Source: Brachionus koreanus (taxonomy: Eukaryota > Rotifera > Eurotatoria > Ploima > Brachionidae). Taken from it: a DNA stretch of 23,998 bases. Both the position numbers and the translations under genes were made by a program. The stretch is from the NCBI GenBank assembly GCA_016987375.1, contig PJRA01000506.1:958991-982988 (forward strand), written 5' to 3'. Shown one piece after another: positions 135 through 23,842 of the stretch (within the stretch, counting starts at the first letter, position 1; each line of letters opens with the position of its first letter). The notes beneath the pieces are model-generated. The model worked only from the letters and a program-made list of their open reading frames with translations, made no database searches and had not been told where the DNA came from.

Positions 135-2581
135 TCTACAACACCAATACTGTTCACAAGCTCCTCATCTATGCCTTTCTCATTTTTTAGCACGACAAAT
201 GTTTTTTCCACTTCTTTTTTCTCATCAACTTTTATTTTACCTTCCACGACATCTTTTTTTGAATGTAAATTTTCGACCGATTGTTCTGTTATTGGATCTT
301 TTTGTTTTGATGGATTTTGTCGTTGTCCAGCTGGTTTTACAACATACAATGGTTCTTGCATAGGTTTTTTTTTTCCCTTTTTTAATTTTTTTTTATTTTT
401 TATTTTTACAGCCACTATTCCTCTTCCGCTTGTTCTTCCTGTCCTTATTCCATTTAATGAAGTTTGTGATGTAATCGAATCTCAAACTTCTGCTTTTACT
501 AATTCGTTTGTTGATGTCGTAAGTTTTAATTTTTTATTTTTAATTTTATTTAAAAATTTTTTTTAGATCGATTCAAATTCCAGACTTTTTTTCAATGATC
601 CAAAAGATTTTCTTTATCCTTCCATCAATTCAATTTCATTTGCTGGTGACGCTGATTCTTCTTTATTCAAAAACATCTGTCCTCCTTTAAATATTCGACA
701 AAAAATTTTACAAAACCGTGTTGATTTCTCTCTCACTAATTCCAGCAACATTTTTCTCGAACGTTTCGAAAAATGTTCAAATTACAATGATTCAAATTTT
801 TCAATTCAAGATTGTTTTTTTCCTTTTGATGTTGAATATTCTCTAATTCTTCAAAATAGCTCTAAAATAACTGAGCAAGATCTAAAAGATATTGGTAAAA
901 ACTATTCAAATCAATTAATTGAAAAATTAAGTTTCAATATCAATAATTCATTGGTTTTTTTTCAGCTTAATTCTAGTTCTAGCTCTTTTTTTTTAAATGT
1001 AAACCAAAAGAAAGATTATTGTAATAATGAAACTAATTGTAATGATGGTCCTGAGCTGATTGAAGACATTAAAAACTATATGAAAGAATTAATTGATAGG
1101 ACTCAAAATTTCAGCAATAGTTATGAAACTTTTGGTAAGTGGCTCTTAAAATTTTTGATGTTTTTATATGTTTTATTGTTGCTTTTTAGCCAAAATTTTG
1201 TGTAACTTAGATAAAGATGATTGCATTTTTCAAAATAAAAAATGTGAAATAAGCACTTTTTCTCAAAAAAGATGTGTTTGTCAAAATGGCTTCTTTGAAT
1301 TCAATGGTATCAATAATGATTGTTTAGGTATGCTTTTTTTATAATCTTTTTTTTAAATATATTTTTTTCTGTATTTAGATTGCACAAAAAAATGTGAAAA
1401 TAGTGGAATTTGTTACAATAACAATAACATAGAATATTGTTATTGCTCTGGTTTTTTTTTTGGAGACCATTGTGAAATAAATGGATTGATAATTTTTGTT
1501 ATTGGAATTGTTTTATTAATATTAAGTTTTGCAACATGTCTTTTATTATGGTTCTGCTTTATAATAAGAAAAATGTATTTTTTTCATAAATTTAAATGAT
1601 CATGATTAATTTTTTTTTAAGAAAAAAGACTAAAATTGCAGATCAAAATCTTAAAAATAATTCCGCTCCTGAAGAAACTGAAATCAAGCAGATTTATGAC
1701 AACATCGAATTTGATAATGATGATTTTTTTAAGACTTTAGAAAATCCAAAAAGGCTAAATGAAGAATTTGATGCTGAATGGGATAAATTTAGTGTTGATG
1801 ATGAAATAAATTGGGATATCATTTTTGGAAAGGATGAAGATTTGAATTCAATTGAAGTAAATTAGTTTTTGTATTAAATTTTTCAAGTTTTTTTCTTTTT
1901 AACACTAGAAGCACCAAGCATTTTTTCACCTTTTTTAATTCAAAAATATTTTATAAAAGAAATCATTTTTCAACGAAAATTATAAAATCTACATAAATAA
2001 AAAAAGATAAATTCATTTAAAAATCTATTCAAAAGATACGAGGATTTGAAAATTTTTCAAATGAGTCAAATGACTCATTCGGTACTCCTAGTCTTTAATT
2101 GGAACGGTCCAAACTGAGAGCTGTTTTAAATTAAATTTTGGATATTTTTTTCATTGGGAACAGAAAAACCATTAAAAGAAAGCTTGGCTATCTAAGGGTT
2201 TATTTTACTCAGAATTTAATTTATAATAATTTATAATAAAAGTGGATAAAATATGTAAGCTTCTTTATTTAGGAAGCAAAAATATAAAATCATTGATGCT
2301 AATTTGAAAAGCCGTTCCTAATAATTTAATTTTTTTAGAATTCCGAAGAAACTGGAGCTATTAACCCTGCATTTTTGACTAAGAGTAATTTGATGATTCC
2401 CAGAGTAAACTTAAATGGCCATAAAGATCTTTTTGGAACTGACATATCATCGACTTTGAAAAGTCAAATATCCTTGCCTGGTCCAACAAATTTCAATGAC
2501 TTCAAAGGCATACCAAGAGCATGGATTACTGAGCCCACTATTGAAGACTATGAAAGTGATCATAATGAAGCATATTTTTAA
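1..2581 (+). CDS. Mucin-stalked, Cys-rich/EGF-like single-pass membrane protein (5' partial)
   Basis: Spliced by eye: <3-363, 412-518, 567-1134, 1190-1327, 1379-1574, 1622-1856, 2339-2581; all junctions GT...AG and in phase, giving 615 residues to TAA. In order: Thr/Ser-rich mucin-like stalk (residues 1-84); six-Cys EB/EGF-like module (about 86-119, core SFCFDGFCRCPAGF); an unrecognised Asn/Ser-rich, probably glycosylated ectodomain (about 120-370) with a CNNETNC loop; a second Cys-rich stretch; a classical EGF module (C393-C423, ending CYCSGFFFGDHC); a transmembrane helix (about 427-454) followed by basic RK; and an acidic cytoplasmic tail. It is probably a type I surface or adhesion protein, but no ligand or family can be named. 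The 5' end and signal peptide lie outside the window. The last intron (482 bp) carries a transposon terminus; if retained, the protein ends at TAG 1863, three codons past the donor. Confidence 0.85.
1899..2079 (+). mobile_element. piggyBac-like terminus inside intron 6 of the first gene
   Basis: Begins at TTAA (1899-1902) with the terminal sequence cactagaagcaccaagca. About 180 bp match, inverted, the block at 12651-12853, including the inner tract ctattcaaaagatacgagga. At 2060-2079 is a perfect 9-bp-arm palindrome (aatgagtca/tgactcatt). No matching opposite terminus is seen before the exon at 2339, so this is one end of a truncated element or a solo terminus. Assignment to the piggyBac type rests on the TTAA site and the repeat of the same termini, not on a transposase here. 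Confidence 0.6.
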
Positions 2582-5294: not shown

Positions 5295-5925
5295 AATTAT
5301 AGGCCTATCTAAATCACATCGATACCAGCTGTATTGCTGAGAGAATTATTAGAAACTTGGTATTAAATTTTTGTCCTGAAAATAAATAAATTAATCAATT
5401 CCAACATGGATTTATTCCTCATAAACCTAATCAAAATTCTTGATTTTTTGACACATAAAATATCTCTAGGCAATCAAGTGGATGTACTTTATACGGATTT
5501 CTCTAAAGCTTTCGATAGAGTGAATCACCAAAAAATTTTAATTTAAACTTAAACAGCTTGACATTGACGGAATGTGATTAAAATGGATTGAATCGTTTCT
5601 TAGTAATTGTAAACAAAGAGTTGAAGTTGGTAAAACAGAATCCGGATGGCTTAATGCTACTAGTGGTGTACCAAAACGCTCTGTCCTCGGTCCATTTGCT
5701 TTTCACAATTTTCATTCTCAAGTTTGCTCAGTAGCCTCAAAAGGCAACAGAATACTTGGTCAAGTTTTTCCTGTATGGTGCCCATACATAGAGAAAGATA
5801 AAAGAATTCTAGAGGGTGTTCAACGAAGAGCTACTCGTGCTATGACAGAATCTTTTGTCAGATTTACGCATTTTATGGGTTGCAATAAACCACTATATTA
5901 TAATGTAGAAACTTATGATTAGGGA
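5295..5925 (+). pseudogene. Non-LTR retrotransposon (LINE) reverse transcriptase remnant
   Basis: Translated pieces follow the order of a jockey/CR1-like reverse transcriptase: NYRPI (near 5295), QHGFIPHKPNQNS, VDVLYTDFSKAFDRVNH (motif A with the catalytic Asp, near 5482-5532), a thumb-proximal LKWIESFLSNCKQRVEVGK block, and SGVPKRSVLGP (motif B, near 5662-5695; the usual Gln-Gly is Lys-Arg). The YADD motif is missing: sequence jumps to the C-terminal region GNRILG and then VWCPYIEKDKRILEGVQRR (near 5775-5830). At least two internal deletions, frameshifts and stop codons make it dead. The endonuclease and 3' tail are not seen. Confidence 0.85.
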
Positions 5926-10056: not shown

Positions 10057-13000
10057 TTATAAATATCCACTCGATTGAACATAATCCCATTGCAAGACTA
10101 GATTTTGATTTTTATTAAACATTTTTCTTAAATCTTCAAGCGATTCGTCTTCAAGATTCATTTTTAGAGAATAATCATCTAAAACTCTCTCTTCGGACAA
10201 ATTATCTCTATTCAATAGTGTCAATTCATGGCTAGAATTAAAGTTATCTCTTTCTTTTTTCCATTTCAAGTCTTCTTTTTGTGTGTTGATTTTTCGGCTT
10301 AAATCATAGTCCGATGAAATTTTTTCATTTATGTTGCTAGATGAACTGACCGGTTTTTCTAAAACTTCATTTTCATTTAGGTTCATTTCATCACTTTCTT
10401 GCATTTCATTTTCATTTAAGTCCTCCTTTTGCTTATTAGTAGCAATCAAAGGCAAAAATAAAATATTTCCCAAGGCACCAAGAGCTCCAAAATTTTTAGC
10501 CTCATCTTCTTTTTCCATCTTGTTCGTGTCATCGTTAGAAAAGTTTTTCTCAACCCTTTTACTCTTTCTTTTCTTAATCGAGTCTCTTAGATTAGGCAAA
10601 TATTCAAAACTTGTCTGACAAGATCTATCGCTAATTTGATAAATCGACATGGCATTATCCATTGAATCAAAACTCTTTTTTTCACCATAGCCATTGTAAA
10701 ATTTGGAAATTTTAGGCCGAAAAGCATACCGTGTATAATTAATGGAATATTTTGGTTTCGATTCACTCATTTGACTTGGTGTCTTTAGACCAGCTAAGCC
10801 AGCCAAAAGAAACATGCCATTGGACTTTTTCCGCTGTGAAGATGACAAGTCGTTTTCAAGGAAGGTGCTTGATTGCATATTAGATCCTATATGACACCGC
10901 AGATTTTTGGTTGTGGTGAAGGCGCTTCGTTGGTTTTTTTCAGGCTCAAAAATTATTATATATACTTTTGGTATAAATAAAAAAGCTAGAATAACCGTTG
11001 CACTGAAGCTGATGCTCAGGCTTAAAGTGATAACTTTAAACTCAGATCCGAAAAATAAGGGAAAAAAAGCTATCCAAATGACACATGTTGTGTACATGCT
11101 GAAACCAATAAATTTTGCTTCATTGAAATTTTCTGGTAAATTTCGAGTTTGAATTGCATAGAGGGTGCACATAGCCACCAAGAACATATTATATCCAAGT
11201 GGTCCTATCACCGATATTTTTTCTATCAAACACTCTAGCCGTGCTTCATTGCGTTTCGAATAATTAATATAAATTACCTTGGGTTCGTAGATTAGGCCTG
11301 TTATTATCAGACAGCATTCTACAGATATAATAGCAAGAGTAATTAAAATTTGGGAAGAAATGCTCATAAATCGAAGTTTTTTGGTAAAAAATCGTTTTTT
11401 ACTTTGGGACAAAATTCTGGCTATTCGATTTGTTTTTGTCAAAAGAGCTCCGTAAATAATTGAAAGATTTAGACCTGGTAGAATGCGATTAAGATGGCAG
11501 CTAAATAATGAAGGTTTCAGTAGTAATGGAATGGTTGTTAGATAGCACATGTAGATACCAATTAAAATAATGAAACTTAATTGCTTAGTAGTCGATTTTA
11601 CTATGCTAGTATCCGAAAATCTGATAAATATGTGAAAAACAAATGTATTTATAAGAATTCCGATTGTGCTTACTAGCAGAGCAAAGATTGACGCGAGATC
11701 ACTCCATTTCTGATACTTTAGAGGAAGTTTGTAGCAACCGGTCAAGTTTTTGTTAGGCCAATATCCCAAATTACATTCTTGACATGTGTGATCATCCAAA
11801 ATATAGGAATAATCTTCGCATTTCTTACAATTCCAGCAACATTTTAGACCACCTTGTTTTATTTGCTTAAAAAAAATGAAGTTTTTATTGTATTCTTTAA
11901 TTTATGAAGAAATAGTTTAGAGAAGGTTTTTTTTTCCTAACCTTTATAATTTATCCGAATTCGGAATTTTGAAAAATTAATTTTCTTTGTATTTTTACCT
12001 GTTTTTGGATAAATTAAGTTTTAAATTAACAATAAAAGTAAAATCTAAAATTTTTTTCAAAATTTTTTCTAGTTTCAGAATTTGAAATTAAATATTTTCT
12101 AAGGCTTTCTAATAGGAATTAATAAATTAGAAACAAGTAGTTGATACAAAGTTTATACTACCCAAATAAGTTTGTGCAAAAACTGAGTAAATGTAAAATT
12201 TTCAAAATAGCATTTTTTGATATATTTTTCAAACTTAAATATTAACCTTGCACTTTATCAATATTTTTGAGTGCTAACGCTTTATTAACACTTTATAATT
12301 TTGGCATTATGAATTTTGGAACAAAAAACAAAAACAAAAATTTAAAATTAGAAAACCTTTTTTTTGAGGATCCAAAAAATTGTTCTGTAAAATGTATCAA
12401 CTAATTCAAATTTTGTATCACCCAAATTTAGTCTGTGCAAAAATTGTTCAATTGTGCAAAACTTTATATGCATTAGAAAATTATTAAAATTAATTTGCAG
12501 AGGAAGTACAAAAATTAAATTTGGGTGATACAAGCCTTGCATCAGTTAATACATTTAGCAGAACAATTTTTAGACTATTAGATAAAAAGTTTTTTTAATT
12601 TAAAATTTTAGTTTTTGTTTTTTGTTCCAAAATTCACAATGCCACAATTTTTAAATTAATGAAAAATTTTTAAATCCTCGTATCTTTTGAATAGATTTTT
12701 CAAATGAATATACATTTTTTGATTTTTATGTAGATTTCAAAATTTTCTTTAAAAATGATATTACTTTATAAAATTATTATAGTTTTTTTTTATAAAAATT
12801 ATTTTTGAATTAAAAAAACGTGGAAAAAAAATGCTTGGTGCTTCTAGTGTTAATAATTTAAAATAATTTAATTTAATGAAATTAATTAAATTCAATTTTA
12901 ACCAACTTACTTTTACATATCCAAATTTACATTCCTTGGAACACATGCTTACAAAATCGTTTTCATTATTTGGAAACACAAGTTTAGACAAATCAAGTGA

Positions 13001-16000
13001 AAGCTTATTTTCATTATTCCAACTTCCTACTTCCCTATAAGTATATCGAGTTGAATTATCAATCTTGTTAAATTCTTTCTGAACATTTAGAATAACATAT
13101 CTAAAATCTTGTCAATTAGGATTAAATTGAAAAATTATTGGCCAAATAAAACCTTCCGGGAGGATCTCCATTCAAATCAAAATTAATTTTCTCGCCAGCC
13201 ATACCAACAAATGAGCTATCCCTAATATTATTAAACAATTCACTACCAGTTATTTTTTTCATTTTTTCACATAATCCTGGTATGCCCCCACAAGCCTATT
13301 TTAATATTTTAAACATAAATCGAGAGACTAGAGTAAAAATTTAAGACTACATTCTTATGAATTCTAGCCAAGCCATGAGTTATTGCTAGAAGAGCGTTTA
13401 TCACATAGCTCATTTTTGGATCCTGTTGATAATTGCGAAGCGAGTCCGGATAGTAGTCTCCTGAAAAATTTTCCATTATTTTATCTGTATTTATTTTGCA
13501 TATAAAAGGTAATTTTGAGTGACAATTTTTTAATTTAACACAATAGTCCAATTTGTTAGAGTTATTTGATATTATGATTGAAATACATTGATAGTTGTTG
13601 AATATTTTACTATTATAGAAAGTAATTACATCCTCAGAACTAATGCTTGATTCAAAGTCACTCATCTCATAATTTTTCTCCATGGTATTTCTTTTGTATT
13701 TTAAGTCACAATTGCGAAAAATAACAGACTTTGAAATAAAGCTATATTCATTTACTTTTGAATCAGATTCCTTTGTATCAGTGTCTAATTCAATTCTTGC
13801 ATGCATTCGAGAAAAAAAATCTTTTTTTATTTGATTTTGATTGTTTAGATAGCTAAACAAATCGTTTAAATCTTGCTGATTATTCAAATCGAGCAGATCT
13901 GAATCATGGTATTTGCTCTCACATTTATTTTGAGCCTCTTGCCAATTTAAACTTTCGGTCGAAAACCAATAGCATTTTTTACCAATTTCATGAAACTCTG
14001 CTGGACATTTTCCTTGTTTAAAAAGAATTTAAATAAATTTCTATTTTATTAAATATCATGTTTTTAAAAGGAGTTTTCTTTTAAATTAAATTACAGCTAA
14101 AATTAAATACATTTAAAAATATTTTTTACTTAAAAAAAATATATATTTTTTTTGAAATTAAAAAAATCAAATGTTTATTTAAGTTTATTATATCATTATG
14201 GTGAGTCAAAATATTTTGCATCTTTTTTTAATTTATCAAAAAAAAAGTAAATGATTACTAATATTCATAATAACCATTAACAAAATAACCTATAAACCAT
14301 TATTTTATCTATCTAGTTCAACTCCTATCTTTTTTCATTCACGACTTTGTGGTTAATAAAGTGCCATCCTCTAAAAAATAAACCATTGAGAGAAAAAGAT
14401 GATAATCAGAAGAAAGGTCTGTGCTTTATTCTGGATGAGGAAGAAGTTTTATCTCAGTTCTTCAATTTTCTACCGAACACACAACATCAAGCATGCGTAG
14501 GGAAATAAACATATTAACGCTTATGCTTAAAGAATATGATTGAGGATTTATTTAATTTTAAATCTTTGGGCTTAGACACCCGATTTAAACTAACTTTTAA
14601 TAAAAGCCATTTAGCATTGATACCAAAACCTTATTTTGTTAGGACAACATTAAAATCGTCCACTAGACATATTTAACGAGTTACTGCTGTTGCTGACAAA
14701 CCTTTCTCTTTTTTTTCCAACAAAATACATTAATGGAAATTCAAAATTTGAAAAAAAAGTTTATCTACACTCAGTCCTAAAAAAATTTAATCGGTTCAAT
14801 ATCTCAAAGGTATTCAACTAGATTTTTTTTTCTTATAAAAATGTTTAATTAAATCTAAATATTTTTAAATTGAAAATTCAAACACATCATAAATAAATTC
14901 AAGCTGATTTTTCTCTTAGCTTATTTTTATCAAATTCTAATTTTACAAATAAAAAACATACTTAATAATTAGCAAAATTTATGACTAGACTTGACAATAT
15001 TTTAAATTATTTGCATATTATAAAACAATTTAATATATTATAAGACTAAATTAGACTTACAAAAAAAGTGAAAAAAAATCTAAAAATAGAATTTTAATTT
15101 TTGGAACAAAAAGTATTTATTCAAAAGTGGTCTCAAGCAGTAAAAGTAGCTAAGTCAATTGAAAAAATTTTAATAAGATCAGAAAATATACTTTATCATT
15201 TAAGCATTATAACTTGACTATACACTTGACTTGAAAAATTCGACTTGTGAGAGTAAATATTGTAGCAAATTTTGTTTATTGTCATCAATTAGCCATGATT
15301 AAAATATATTGAAAAATATGAATTTGCAAATAAACCGAAAAAGGCGCGTCCAAAGCTAGTTGATCACTGGCACTCATTTAAATAGACTATTATTTAATTT
15401 AATAGTAACACTAGAACGTTTTTATCTTTAAAAGTTAATAATTTTTTAATTTTTTTCCCAATTTTAAAATTTAATTTTGTTTCCATTTTATTTTTAAAAA
15501 TCATAAATTGTTAGAAATTACATAAGAAAAAAAACATATCCGGAAACGTCTGGAGGAAGCTTTAAACCCCTTTTTTTTAAATCAAATATAAAAGCTTTCT
15601 TTTTAACTATATGTATATATTAATTACAAGAAAAATAAATAAAAATATAATGTCAAAGCGAGCTTCAGCTAAACTTGACTTGGACCAGCTTACTAAAGCT
15701 AATGATGCTGATTCAGATCCTTCACGGGATTCTGATTATGAAGAAGATGCCTTTGAATCTGAAATAGATTTTTTTTAATTGTCAGATTTAACAAATGATG
15801 ACTGTGATGTGGAAAGAGTGGTAAGCAACAAACATCTGGACAACCTTTAGAAGTAAATAAAACACCAAAATCAGGTGTTATATGGAAAAAAACTAAATGA
15901 CGCTGATGAGACAAAAATAAGAAAAATGATTTCTTTCAATGAAAAAGCTGGCCAAACAAGTTATTCAACTACATGTTTTGATAAGATTTCTTTGTTAACT

Positions 16001-18020
16001 TTTTTACTAATTTTTGATTTGTCAATGCTGAGAATGTTTCTTGAAATACTAATGTATTTTCTCTCAGTCCATTGAGCGAAGTATTTCTTTTTAAAAAGAA
16101 GACATTCTCTGTTTTATTGGAACATTACTCAATAGAAGAAAAATTCTTGTAAGAGAAATGTGTTTAGTAATAAACTAAAAACAAAAGCTCTCTGTTAAAA
16201 GTTTATTGAAAAAGGAGGATAAAATATATTTGAATGAAAGATTTAATAAGGGTTTTTTTAAACCTAGCCGGACGTTTAAGGTATAAAAATAATGTGGCGT
16301 TCTATTGTTAAAACAAACTTAAAAATTTTTATCAAAAAAAATTTGTTTGAACAACATAAAATCTTTATCGCCAAAAAAAAATCAATTAATTTGTATTCCC
16401 TCCAAAGATATTGTTTTAAACAGACTTTTATGTTAAAAAGATTTTGGTTTGTGGTGAACAAATAAATCCATTCAAAAACTAATTAAATTTAATTAGAAGA
16501 GATAGTTTCTAATTTAAAATCTGGATTTAAATAGAATTTACTGATCATTTAGATTTCATTGTTTTTTTTTGCATTTTAATGTCAAATTGAATTAAATGTA
16601 AAAACAACTGCAATTCAATTTAAAAAATTTTGATTTTTTTAATGAAAATTTCGCATAAAAACATTTAAATTTAATTCAAGAATAAACAAATTATGAAATT
16701 TAAAAAAAAAATTTAGCTTGATTTTTTAAAATTATTTTTCTAAGATAATTAATTACTTTTACATGGTGTCTTGTAGAACTTTTCCGACTCTTTATCAATG
16801 TAACAATTAAATCTATATTCCCAGTACTCATTGAACCATACGTTTCTTAAATTATTCGATGGATTTAGCCTTGCAAAATAATCATGGAATTCAGTTACGA
16901 CAGGTGAGTGTGCTTTAATTGACAAAGAGCCTATAGCCTCATCATAATAGTCTTTGGCTACATCAATTCTATCCGACCATCCATCGCTAAAAATAAAATT
17001 TTACTAAGGATCAAAAGTAAAGCTTACTTGCCTCCCAATTATAATGAATCGACCTTTGAGTTCCAAACGGTTAATGGCTGCTAGTAGACCTCTAATTGTT
17101 TCACCATAACAAAAACAAACTATCACTCTGGCCGATTCGGTATCATTCATTCTCTTGATTAAATTCTCATAATCTTCATCGCTTGCATATTGGGTTAATT
17201 TTTCATACATCACTAAGCATATATTCAAATATGAAGTTCTATTGCGAAATGCTTCCATACCACCCTGGCCATAACTTCCGTCAGTGTAAATCGCAAAAAT
17301 ATATGTCCAATTCATTCTCACCACTAAATCTGTCATCGCTCTAACTTGTAAGTAATCGCTAGGAACTACGCGTAAAAATGTTTTGTACATTTTTTTGTTA
17401 CTCAAATCGGTGCTTGTCGCCGAATAGGCCACTTGAGGTATATCAAACAATTGTAATAAATTTTGCACATTAATAGCTAAATCGCTTCCTGCAGGACCGA
17501 TCACTGCTAAAATTCTATTTTCATTTTCTTTATCACGGAGAATTTTTTGACATATATTATCTCTTGTATCATTAAAAGTATACTCTGACATTTGATCATT
17601 TTGTAGAATAAATGCAGGTACATTTTCATCACTCTCTTCCTCATTTTTGGCACTAGCAATTGTATGCTTAATGAAATCTATAGTTTCTTCTAAAGCTACA
17701 CTTGTAACCCAACATTCATCTCTAATTTCAACTCCTAGTTTTATGCCTGGAAGCAAATTAAGCTGATTGTTTATTTTATCGAGCATAAAAAGTAATGCTT
17801 CAACACGCTGTATGCCATATTGGTCCCTGATAAGACCGCATTTTGACTTGGGTATTTTGACTGAATCGTCGTAAGACGGCTGTTCATGAACTGGCAATAA
17901 AACACCAATCATCAAATCTCCATGCTGTATTATTCTTTTTCTCTTTTTACCAAATCCAGATATTTGATTGATTGACATTAAAATCACGAAAAAAATATAA
18001 ATTTTTATTTTTATAAACAT
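10057..18020 (-). CDS. Group I-type metabotropic glutamate receptor with inserted C-type lectin-like domain
   Basis: Six exons (18020-17032, 16986-16757, 14012-13351, 13295-13153, 13100-12911, 11865-10057) total 4023 bases, 1340 residues. Signal peptide 1-22; ligand-binding domain about 34-690, interrupted by a lectin-like domain at 409-579; nine-Cys domain about 718-781; 7TM about 795-1045 (KTNRIARIL, FNEAKFIGFSMYTTC and PKVYIII are family hallmarks); tail about 295 residues, Ser- and acid-rich, with no PPxxF Homer motif. YGIQRVEA, SVALEETIDFI and NVQNLLQLFDIPQ point to the mGluR1/5 group. Glutamate contacts known from mGluR1 are all present: Y68, R72, S179, T202, D222, Y250, D331, R336, K606 (mGluR1 Y74, R78, S165, T188, D208, Y236, D318, R323, K409). 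Expected role: plasma-membrane, Gq-coupled glutamate sensing. Intron 1 is GC-AG. Exon 2 donor is gtaatt (16756), because the nearby gtaaaa donor would create a TGA at the join. Confidence 0.95.
11940..12240. repeat. Receptor intron 5, diverged fold-back-like segment
   Basis: The block near 12140-12185 (gttgatacaaag, actacccaaataagtttgtgcaaaaactg) is a diverged direct copy of the block at 12396-12445 inside the neighbouring fold-back element. It suggests an older partial insertion of the same family. The remaining bases are AT-rich. Confidence 0.4.
12297..12650. mobile_element. Fold-back element (MITE-like) in receptor intron 5
   Basis: The outer ends are inverted copies: ggcattatgaattttggaac (12303-12322) against ggcattgtgaattttggaac on the other strand (12623-12642), continuing through aaaaaacaaaaac. 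The arms stay complementary far inward: attgttctgtaaaatgtatc and tgtatcacccaaattta on the left recur inverted on the right (12515-12575). The whole element is a long imperfect palindrome of about 350 bp centred near 12475, with no coding capacity. A target duplication is not clear. It lies directly beside the TTAA-type terminus at 12651-12853. Confidence 0.75.
12651..12853 (-). mobile_element. piggyBac-like terminus in receptor intron 5
   Basis: Ends with gcttggtgcttctagtg followed by TTAA (12850-12853). It is the inverted relative of 1899-2079: shared tracts include the terminal 20 bases, aatctacataaa, and ctattcaaaagatacgagga. Similarity stops near the fold-back element, which may have interrupted it. 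The partner end is not identified with confidence; ttaacact at 12284-12291 is only a weak candidate. Confidence 0.6.
13495..14007 (-). other. Segment encoding the inserted C-type lectin-like domain
   Basis: Residues 409-579 of the receptor. The long-form CTLD pattern is visible: CPAEF (C409), KKCYWF (C420), helix NWQEAQNKC (C437), DLLDLNNQQDLNDLFSYL, then QC (C549), NC (C570) and the terminal PFIC (C578). Inferred pairs: C409-C420, C437-C578, C549-C570; extra C508 and C564 could form a fourth. The WIGL core is degenerate, and neither an EPN/QPD nor a WND calcium/sugar motif is seen, so a calcium-independent protein-binding fold is more likely than sugar binding. The insertion follows the loop FNC...TPC, equivalent to mGluR1 C378-C394, and precedes YQQDPKMSYVINA (mGluR1 YVQDSKMGFVINA). 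Confidence 0.9.
14352..14434. repeat. Dispersed repeat copy 1 (see 23037-23128)
   Basis: Shares with 23037-23128, in the same orientation, the tracts ggttaataaa, ccctctaa-like, attgag-gaaaaa-gataa and gaaaggtctgtg. Diverged; family unknown. It might be part of an old transposase, but neither strand translates to something I can name. Confidence 0.4.
15405..16311 (+). pseudogene. piggyBac-like element fossil with N-terminal transposase remnant
   Basis: Left end gtaacactagaacgt (15405) and right end gcgttctattgttaa (to 16311) are inverted repeats matching at 12 of 15 positions, with TTAA on the right and GTAA on the left. A subterminal inverted repeat, AAACGTCYGG, is at 15545-15554 and 16267-16276. 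Inside, an ATG at 15650 opens 42 codons of acidic N-terminal sequence (MSKRASAKLDLDQL then DSDPSRDSDYEEDAFESE), stop at 15776; after frameshifts comes ISFNEKAGQTSYSTTCFD and LIFDLSM (15875-16074), in the style of piggyBac transposase before its catalytic domain. No catalytic Asp motifs remain. Dead, internally deleted element in intron 2 of the receptor. Confidence 0.6.
16987..17031 (-). other. GC-AG intron (receptor intron 1)
   Basis: 45 bp, donor GCAAGT, acceptor TTTTAG. Using it gives IIIGSDGWSDR, matching the invariant receptor IGSDGW motif. The neighbouring GT donor (gtaagc, four bases downstream) would shift the frame and give an early stop. Confidence 0.85.
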
Positions 18021-23357: not shown

Positions 23358-23842
23358 TCAAATCAATTGTTGTTCTGTTGTTGCTTCCCAGTCTCCTTCA
23401 TAGACATTCTGTGCCAAGATATCCCTAAAGTTCTCTATTGGTCTTGCCTGTGGACCATTTGGACGATTAATGTCTTTTGGTACAAAATAAACCATTACAT
23501 CCATCAAAGAAATTGTCTCAGCAGATCCATGAGCACTTGCTAGACCAGACCAAAACAAATAATTAGAGTCGCTGTGAAACTTATCGATGAATGGTAGAAG
23601 TAGTTTTTCCAAGCATTCTTTAATATAAACCATTGAATTTAAAGCAGTAGATTTGGACGAGCGACAAAAAAAGGCTTTGACATTCGGCGCTCAGAAATTG
23701 CTATCCACATAAAAAATTTTTTTGTAAACTTTTCCAGCAAAACGAATATTTTCTGGACTTTTTTCTTTTGCACCAGTATAATACCCATCATTTCATTACC
23801 AGCAAAGCAAAATATTTTTCATCATCCAAAAATACGATGTAA
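23358..23842 (-). pseudogene. Tc1/mariner-type transposase remnant
   Basis: Read on the minus strand in several frames: VFLDDEKYF (first catalytic Asp, near 23835-23809), SPENIRFAGKVYKK, MWIAISERRMSKPFFVARPN, then the open stretch 23633-23358 with VYIKECLEKLLLPFID, FWSGLASAHGSAE, VYFVPKDINRPNGPQARPIE and VYEGDWEATTEQQL. These are the ordered blocks of a DDE transposase. The second catalytic Asp (usual FWPDLASAH) is Gly here, and Trp is lost in NFRD (usual DFW). At least two frameshifts and an in-frame stop lie between blocks. The N-terminal helix-turn-helix part is missing, being cut off at the tRNA-like sequence. The element is inactive. Confidence 0.85.

Follow-up and report, generated by a model that had tools for sequence, protein, structure and literature searches.

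Does the Venus flytrap domain (VFT) of a glutamate receptor of the rotifer Brachionus koreanus harbor a C-type lectin-like domain (CTLD) and, if so, what could such a composite receptor do? The question is raised by the minus strand of the window (the whole stretch of DNA analyzed here, 23,998 nucleotides), on which six exons form an intact group I metabotropic glutamate receptor (mGluR) gene (18020-10057). From the lines of evidence presented below, we propose, with a probability of roughly 0.7, that this gene of monogonont rotifers encodes a functional glutamate receptor whose flytrap houses a CTLD. The features of the gene are as follows.

Exon 1, 17032..18020, minus strand: N-terminus and first part of the VFT (ANF_receptor, E 2.5e-50; gene model).
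Exon 2, 16757..16986, minus strand: VFT, ending in phase 1, one codon and one base past the cysteine equivalent to mGluR1 C394 (gene model; alignments to mouse mGluR1 P0109 and to the mGluR1 chain 7dge).
Intron 2, 14013..16756, minus strand: 2744 nt, phase 1, if the lectin-proximal acceptor is used.
Exon 3, 14012-13351, minus strand: predicted CTLD insert, then VFT segment.
Predicted CTLD insert, 13461..14012, minus strand: 552 nt, i.e. 184 codons, residues 407-590 of the long product; acceptor TTTTTAAACAAG/G (open frame; PDB profile matches; homologous inserts in P0001, P0002 and P0003).
Candidate second 3' splice site, 13461..13472, minus strand: AAAATTTTTCAG/G, same phase, at the insert end; its use would skip the CTLD and give a product of 1156 amino acids.
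Remainder of exon 3, 13351..13460, minus strand: VFT segment DYYPDSLRNYQQDPKMSYVINALLAITHGLARIHKN, including the lysine equivalent to mGluR1 K409.
Exon 4, 13153..13295, minus strand: VFT (gene model; alignment).
Exon 5, 12911..13100, minus strand: VFT end and start of the cysteine-rich domain (gene model; alignment).
Exon 6, 10057..11865, minus strand: rest of the cysteine-rich domain, seven transmembrane helices and cytoplasmic tail ending in QSSGYL; acceptor AAG (7tm_3, E 4.3e-59; NCD3G, E 1.2e-7, below cut-off).

The six-exon model has a coding sequence of 4023 nt in its long form, which we infer to be translated in vivo into 1340 amino acids; its phases are consistent throughout and it contains a single terminal stop. 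The initial annotation had described the exon 14012-13351 as open and in phase with both neighbors, and both points hold in this model. The N-terminus encoded by exon 1 reads like a signal peptide. Intron 1 is apparently of the GC-AG type (donor gcaagt at 17031, minus strand), as required by the phases and by the conserved GSDGW motif. Intron 2 houses on the plus strand (15650-15779) a short acidic open frame beginning with MSKRASAKLDLDQLTKANDADSDPSRDSDYEEDAFESEI, which in our estimation recalls the start of a transposase-derived gene. Other open frames of the window include one of 110 residues (23358-23690, minus strand; no Pfam family at E <=1), which we take to resemble a mariner-type transposase remnant; one of 114 residues (5578-5922, plus strand; no Pfam family at E <=0.1), presumably resembling a broken retrotransposon reverse transcriptase; and those at 567-1865 (plus strand), possibly corresponding to a membrane protein with a single transmembrane segment and an EGF-like region (EGF_2, 14.8 bits versus a cut-off of 22.1).

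Of the four Pfam families expected from the initial annotation, ANF_receptor (exon 1) and 7tm_3 (exon 6) exceeded their cut-offs, whereas NCD3G reached 31.9 bits (cut-off 38.9) in the exon-6 frame alone, the domain being split over exons 5 and 6, and Lectin_C stayed below its curated cut-off in the insert (17.3 and 19 versus 22.6 bits). In the three rotifer orthologues presented below NCD3G scored 47.5-50.9 bits. When the ectodomain of the form lacking the insert was compared with solved structures, the best match was mGluR1 (E 1.5e-156; 525 bits), followed by mGluR5 (518 bits) and mGluR7 (347 bits), and in this score-based comparison of structure-sequence matches, mGluR1 and mGluR5 came well ahead of mGluR7, mGluR3 and mGluR2. 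Eleven of the 14 mGluR1 pocket positions compared are kept (Y74, R78, S165, S186, T188, D208, Y236, D318, G319, R323 and K409), and three pocket-side positions are changed (S164 to Gly, S166 to Asp and E292 to Tyr), the residue numbers and glutamate-contact roles being those that we assume for mGluR1. Judging by these residues, the core of the receptor seems capable of binding glutamate. Two more ANF_receptor places occur on the same contig (G000:C29:894944-906628), about 52-64 kb from the window.

The insert itself (14012-13461) has no stop in its own frame, whereas the remaining two forward frames contain 14 and 25. Simulation with first-order Markov models of the insert and of intron 2, 20000 sequences each, yielded no sequence with a forward frame open for the full 552 nt. 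Its GC content (27%) is low for coding sequence here (other exons, 27-40%; intron 2, 23%). A joint profile of the four rotifer inserts matched 143 distinct PDB sequences at E <=1 (best E 1.8e-6), the best 60 of which all bear what we take to be names of CTLD proteins. The B. koreanus insert alone matched solved structures with a best E of 2.6e-5 (60 of 69 matches listed), and the Proales similis insert, which is 33% identical to it, gave 44 matches (best E 0.0029), all of them, by our reading of their names, CTLD proteins. Comparison of the insert profile with ten resident CTLDs of this genome by hhalign gave probabilities of 95.9 (local, 48 columns) and 97.1 (global), values that come from one template without database calibration, the global alignment being unreliable column by column. 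The densest CTLD site of the genome searched (83 Mb, 92 contigs), among the matches listed, is a cluster of eleven Lectin_C matches in about 13 kb (G000:C6:742428-755653).

Most of the CTLD signal is carried by the first 50-60 residues or so of the insert, the middle of which does not align to CTLDs and varies strongly among rotifers (about 40 fewer residues in B. calyciflorus). Lectin_C matched two of the four inserts at E <=1 and gave no match in the three orthologues scanned whole; single inserts also attract unrelated weak families (e.g. CovS-like_HAMP, 0.002). The WIGL core motif is absent from all four inserts, as read from the alignment. Insert identity to B. plicatilis, B. calyciflorus and Proales amounts to 74, 34 and 32%, respectively, and that of the other extracellular and membrane domains compared to 82-91, 67-76 and 59-63%. 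Profile homology, mostly over the first 50-60 residues, identifies the exon 3 insert as a probable, divergent CTLD.

The eight cysteines of the insert (409, 420, 437, 508, 549, 564, 570 and 578) are compatible with a CTLD framework with the predicted pairs C0-C0', C1-C4 and C2-C3, and we infer the disulfides 409-420, 437-578, 549-570 and 508-564. The C-x7-C spacing of C570 and C578 is the C-terminal spacing found in five of the ten resident CTLDs of the genome, so that these two residues look like C3 and C4. In the Proales insert, no cysteine corresponds to C549 or C570, although C508 and C564 have counterparts, a joint loss that fits a C2-C3 pair formed by C549 and C570; in B. calyciflorus, the loop cysteine is out of register with C508. 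A PF(I/V)C motif occurs at the C-terminal end of three of the four inserts. The initial annotation had proposed a full long-form CTLD with six hallmark cysteines plus two, and the insert does contain eight cysteines. EPN or QPD and WND are the motifs of Ca2+-dependent sugar-binding lectins. None of QPD, EPN and WND occurs anywhere in the long protein, an absence that speaks for a protein ligand rather than for classical Ca2+-dependent sugar binding; we favor a putative protein-binding module on a working glutamate receptor.

The insertion site lies just past the cysteine equivalent to mGluR1 C394, as the initial annotation had placed it (after the C378-C394 loop). In MAFFT alignments mouse C394 fell under a late CTLD cysteine; we rejected this placement and set the equivalent at C405 (in TPC), because the form lacking the insert then has the modal spacing between C378 and K409. 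Indeed, this spacing is 31 residues in 97 of 121 database proteins, and 17-40 residues in 118 of the 121 (the former 97 included), which have no insert there, these proteins being the best-scoring relatives listed, many of them from fishes, and not an even sample of animals. In the B. koreanus protein the distance is 215 residues with the insert and 31 without it.

Among the matches listed, the closest database proteins are all from rotifers: P0001 of B. plicatilis (83% identity, 70% of the query covered), P0002 of B. calyciflorus (61%, 100% covered) and P0003 of Proales similis (54%, 99% covered). As modelled in the database, all three of these orthologues have a homologous insert in the corresponding position. 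The C378-K409 distance is 172 residues in P0002 and 214 in P0003, and is not measurable in the truncated P0001 model; a junction CK-(R/K)-x-CP is common to the B. koreanus gene and to both full-length relatives (P0002 and P0003). A search with the insert and its flanks (4703 candidates) returned four proteins, namely P0001, P0002, P0003 and the insert-free P0121. No bdelloid name appeared in that search, among the best 120 of 751 database relatives (four rows nameless), or in a further search that scored 65 candidates and did not return even B. plicatilis. Of ten genome loci fetched, the one that is clearly mGluR-like (L034, contig C12) has a single exon spanning the site, with neither insert nor intron. 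The insert-bearing proteins are already present in public databases, under the names mGluR1, unnamed product and G protein-coupled receptor; the precomputed Pfam list gives no lectin domain for the three deposited relatives. A 2021 report by Kim on 401 GPCR genes of Proales similis may be the source of P0003.

That the locus is an assembly chimera, or an adjoining lectin gene misread as an exon, is highly improbable: nothing beyond the odd architecture speaks for it, database proteins from three further species have this insert in an identical position, which rules out an assembly artefact, and one uninterrupted frame, with no stop or intron, runs from the CTLD into the receptor codons, which rules out a separate lectin gene. 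The refutation foreseen in the initial annotation, i.e. orthologues lacking the insertion together with an assembly error, is contradicted by the insert being present in all three orthologues found. A recent duplication of a resident lectin was also rejected; among the best candidates scored in the genome, there was no close copy of the insert, the gene itself being followed by three weak matches (E 0.03-0.6). We also consider it unlikely that the insert is a degenerate or partly disordered CTLD derivative that no longer folds: the lack of WIGL, the long variable middle with its deletion in B. calyciflorus and the restriction of the good match to solved CTLDs to the first ~55 residues would suit such a derivative, whereas the cysteine framework is largely kept, with a paired loss in Proales, and so is PF(I/V)C at the C-terminal end of three of the four inserts.

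The splicing of the insert raises further alternatives. The donor at 16756 gives an open frame with either of the phase-1 acceptors, i.e. the one before the CTLD (TTTTTAAACAAG/G, 14013/14012) or the one at its end (TTTTTCAG/G, 13461/13460), whereas an alternative GT donor at 16762 leads to a stop at residue 405 with either. The upstream acceptor, which ends in AAG, is credible because exon 6 of the same gene also uses AAG. Use of the second acceptor would remove 552 nt in phase, the resulting form reading TPCKRDYYPDSLRNYQQDPKM, and both forms (1340 and 1156 amino acids) end in one terminal stop. The initial annotation, which had delimited a removable segment at 14012-13497, missed this in-phase acceptor; the segment actually ends at 13461. 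That the CTLD exon is mostly skipped, the plain mGluR being the working product and the insert a minor exon of little consequence, appears quite unlikely. The skip acceptor seems nearer the CAG consensus, and the insert evolves faster than the neighboring domains; however, a toy matrix built from four introns (4.6 for the skip acceptor versus 3.6 for the upstream one) says little and cannot rank the two sites, because acceptors actually used by the gene score anywhere between 0.0 and 6.1, and the cytoplasmic tail changes fast too (69, 48 and 24% identity to B. plicatilis, B. calyciflorus and Proales), so that rate alone does not imply neutrality. The 184 codons contain no stop, and both Brachionus and Proales have retained the reading frame and most of the cysteines, which also argues against predominant skipping. 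A stronger competitor, to which we give somewhat less than an even chance, is that the CTLD is always included, the TTTTTCAG site being a fossil or a chance occurrence and the plain receptor never being made; it disputes only the splicing part of our proposal and overlaps with the rest. It agrees with the insert being present in all three orthologue proteins, with the residues around the site (FSGDYYPDS) also being kept in B. plicatilis, as coding sequence would be, and with a looser pyrimidine-AG acceptor pattern occurring at two further coding places (cds 1846 and 3246), meaning that acceptor-like sites arise by chance. Against it, TTTTTCAG occurs only once in the 4023 coding nt, in the right phase and at the end of the domain, and splicing there brings the C378-K409 distance back to the modal 31 residues.

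The gene therefore looks able to encode both plain and lectin-bearing receptors by acceptor choice. An in-phase site at the insert end, combined with the modal spacing, is what would be expected of the original acceptor of a phase-1 intron. It is likely that, prior to the divergence of the Brachionus and Proales lineages, a CTLD module of phase 1 at both ends entered such an intron and came to form a single exon with the coding sequence that follows it. The old acceptor would survive at the insert end, and the pre-mRNA could give either receptor. For this composite receptor, we propose that glutamate is still bound in the cleft, whereas the CTLD, which would replace a short stretch after the C378-C394-type disulfide and comprise about four disulfides and no Ca2+ or sugar motifs, would hang from the loop adjoining the segment with the K409-type contact. 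The CTLD would most likely bind a protein, be it a matrix or partner-cell protein or a co-receptor, and the bound partner could anchor the receptor at a contact site or bias flytrap closure toward one state; the second ligand or synaptic tether put forward in the initial annotation are thus reasonable as putative functions. We tentatively extend this proposal to a splice-switchable coincidence receptor, in which the two in-phase 3' sites would toggle between a plain and a lectin-armed flytrap, making glutamate sensing dependent on a matrix or partner-cell ligand.

Similarly to the group I receptors mGluR1 and mGluR5, the B. koreanus protein has a VFT, a cysteine-rich domain, a class C 7TM domain and the 11 pocket residues mentioned above; it differs from them by the 184-residue CTLD, which follows the C394-type cysteine and is, on paper, optional by splicing. 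With solved CTLDs (CLEC4A, LOX-1, CLEC2D and NKG2D), the insert shares the first helix region and a predicted N-terminal cysteine hairpin of the long form, and its cysteines may follow the same framework, whereas it lacks WIGL and the Ca2+/sugar motifs, has an extra cysteine pair and a long variable middle, and is embedded in another domain. A CTLD-bearing kinase receptor likewise displays CTLDs on a signalling receptor, the available part of its description mentioning no VFT. GABA-B1a, with its N-terminal sushi domains, is another class C receptor with extra extracellular modules, and polycystin-1 is a large membrane protein with a CTLD; in these proteins the modules are appended beside the flytrap fold, whereas here the module is inserted within it. 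In agreement with the initial annotation, which knew of no such class C GPCR, we found no description of a CTLD in an mGluR or a class C flytrap in the open-access literature searched. The central claim of that annotation, a probable CTLD within the VFT of an mGluR, finds support in homology, in the structure of the gene and in the occurrence of the insert in three other monogonont rotifer proteins.

The flytrap of mGluRs is a drug target, and its closure is coupled to a rearrangement of the receptor dimer. A natural insertion near a glutamate-contact residue shows how much the flytrap fold tolerates, and this one is a domain insertion missed by standard annotation, Pfam flagging none in the deposited relatives. 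If both splice forms are made, they would offer a natural plus/minus test of an extracellular protein ligand gating a class C receptor. If our proposal is true, one receptor may read both glutamate and a second partner.
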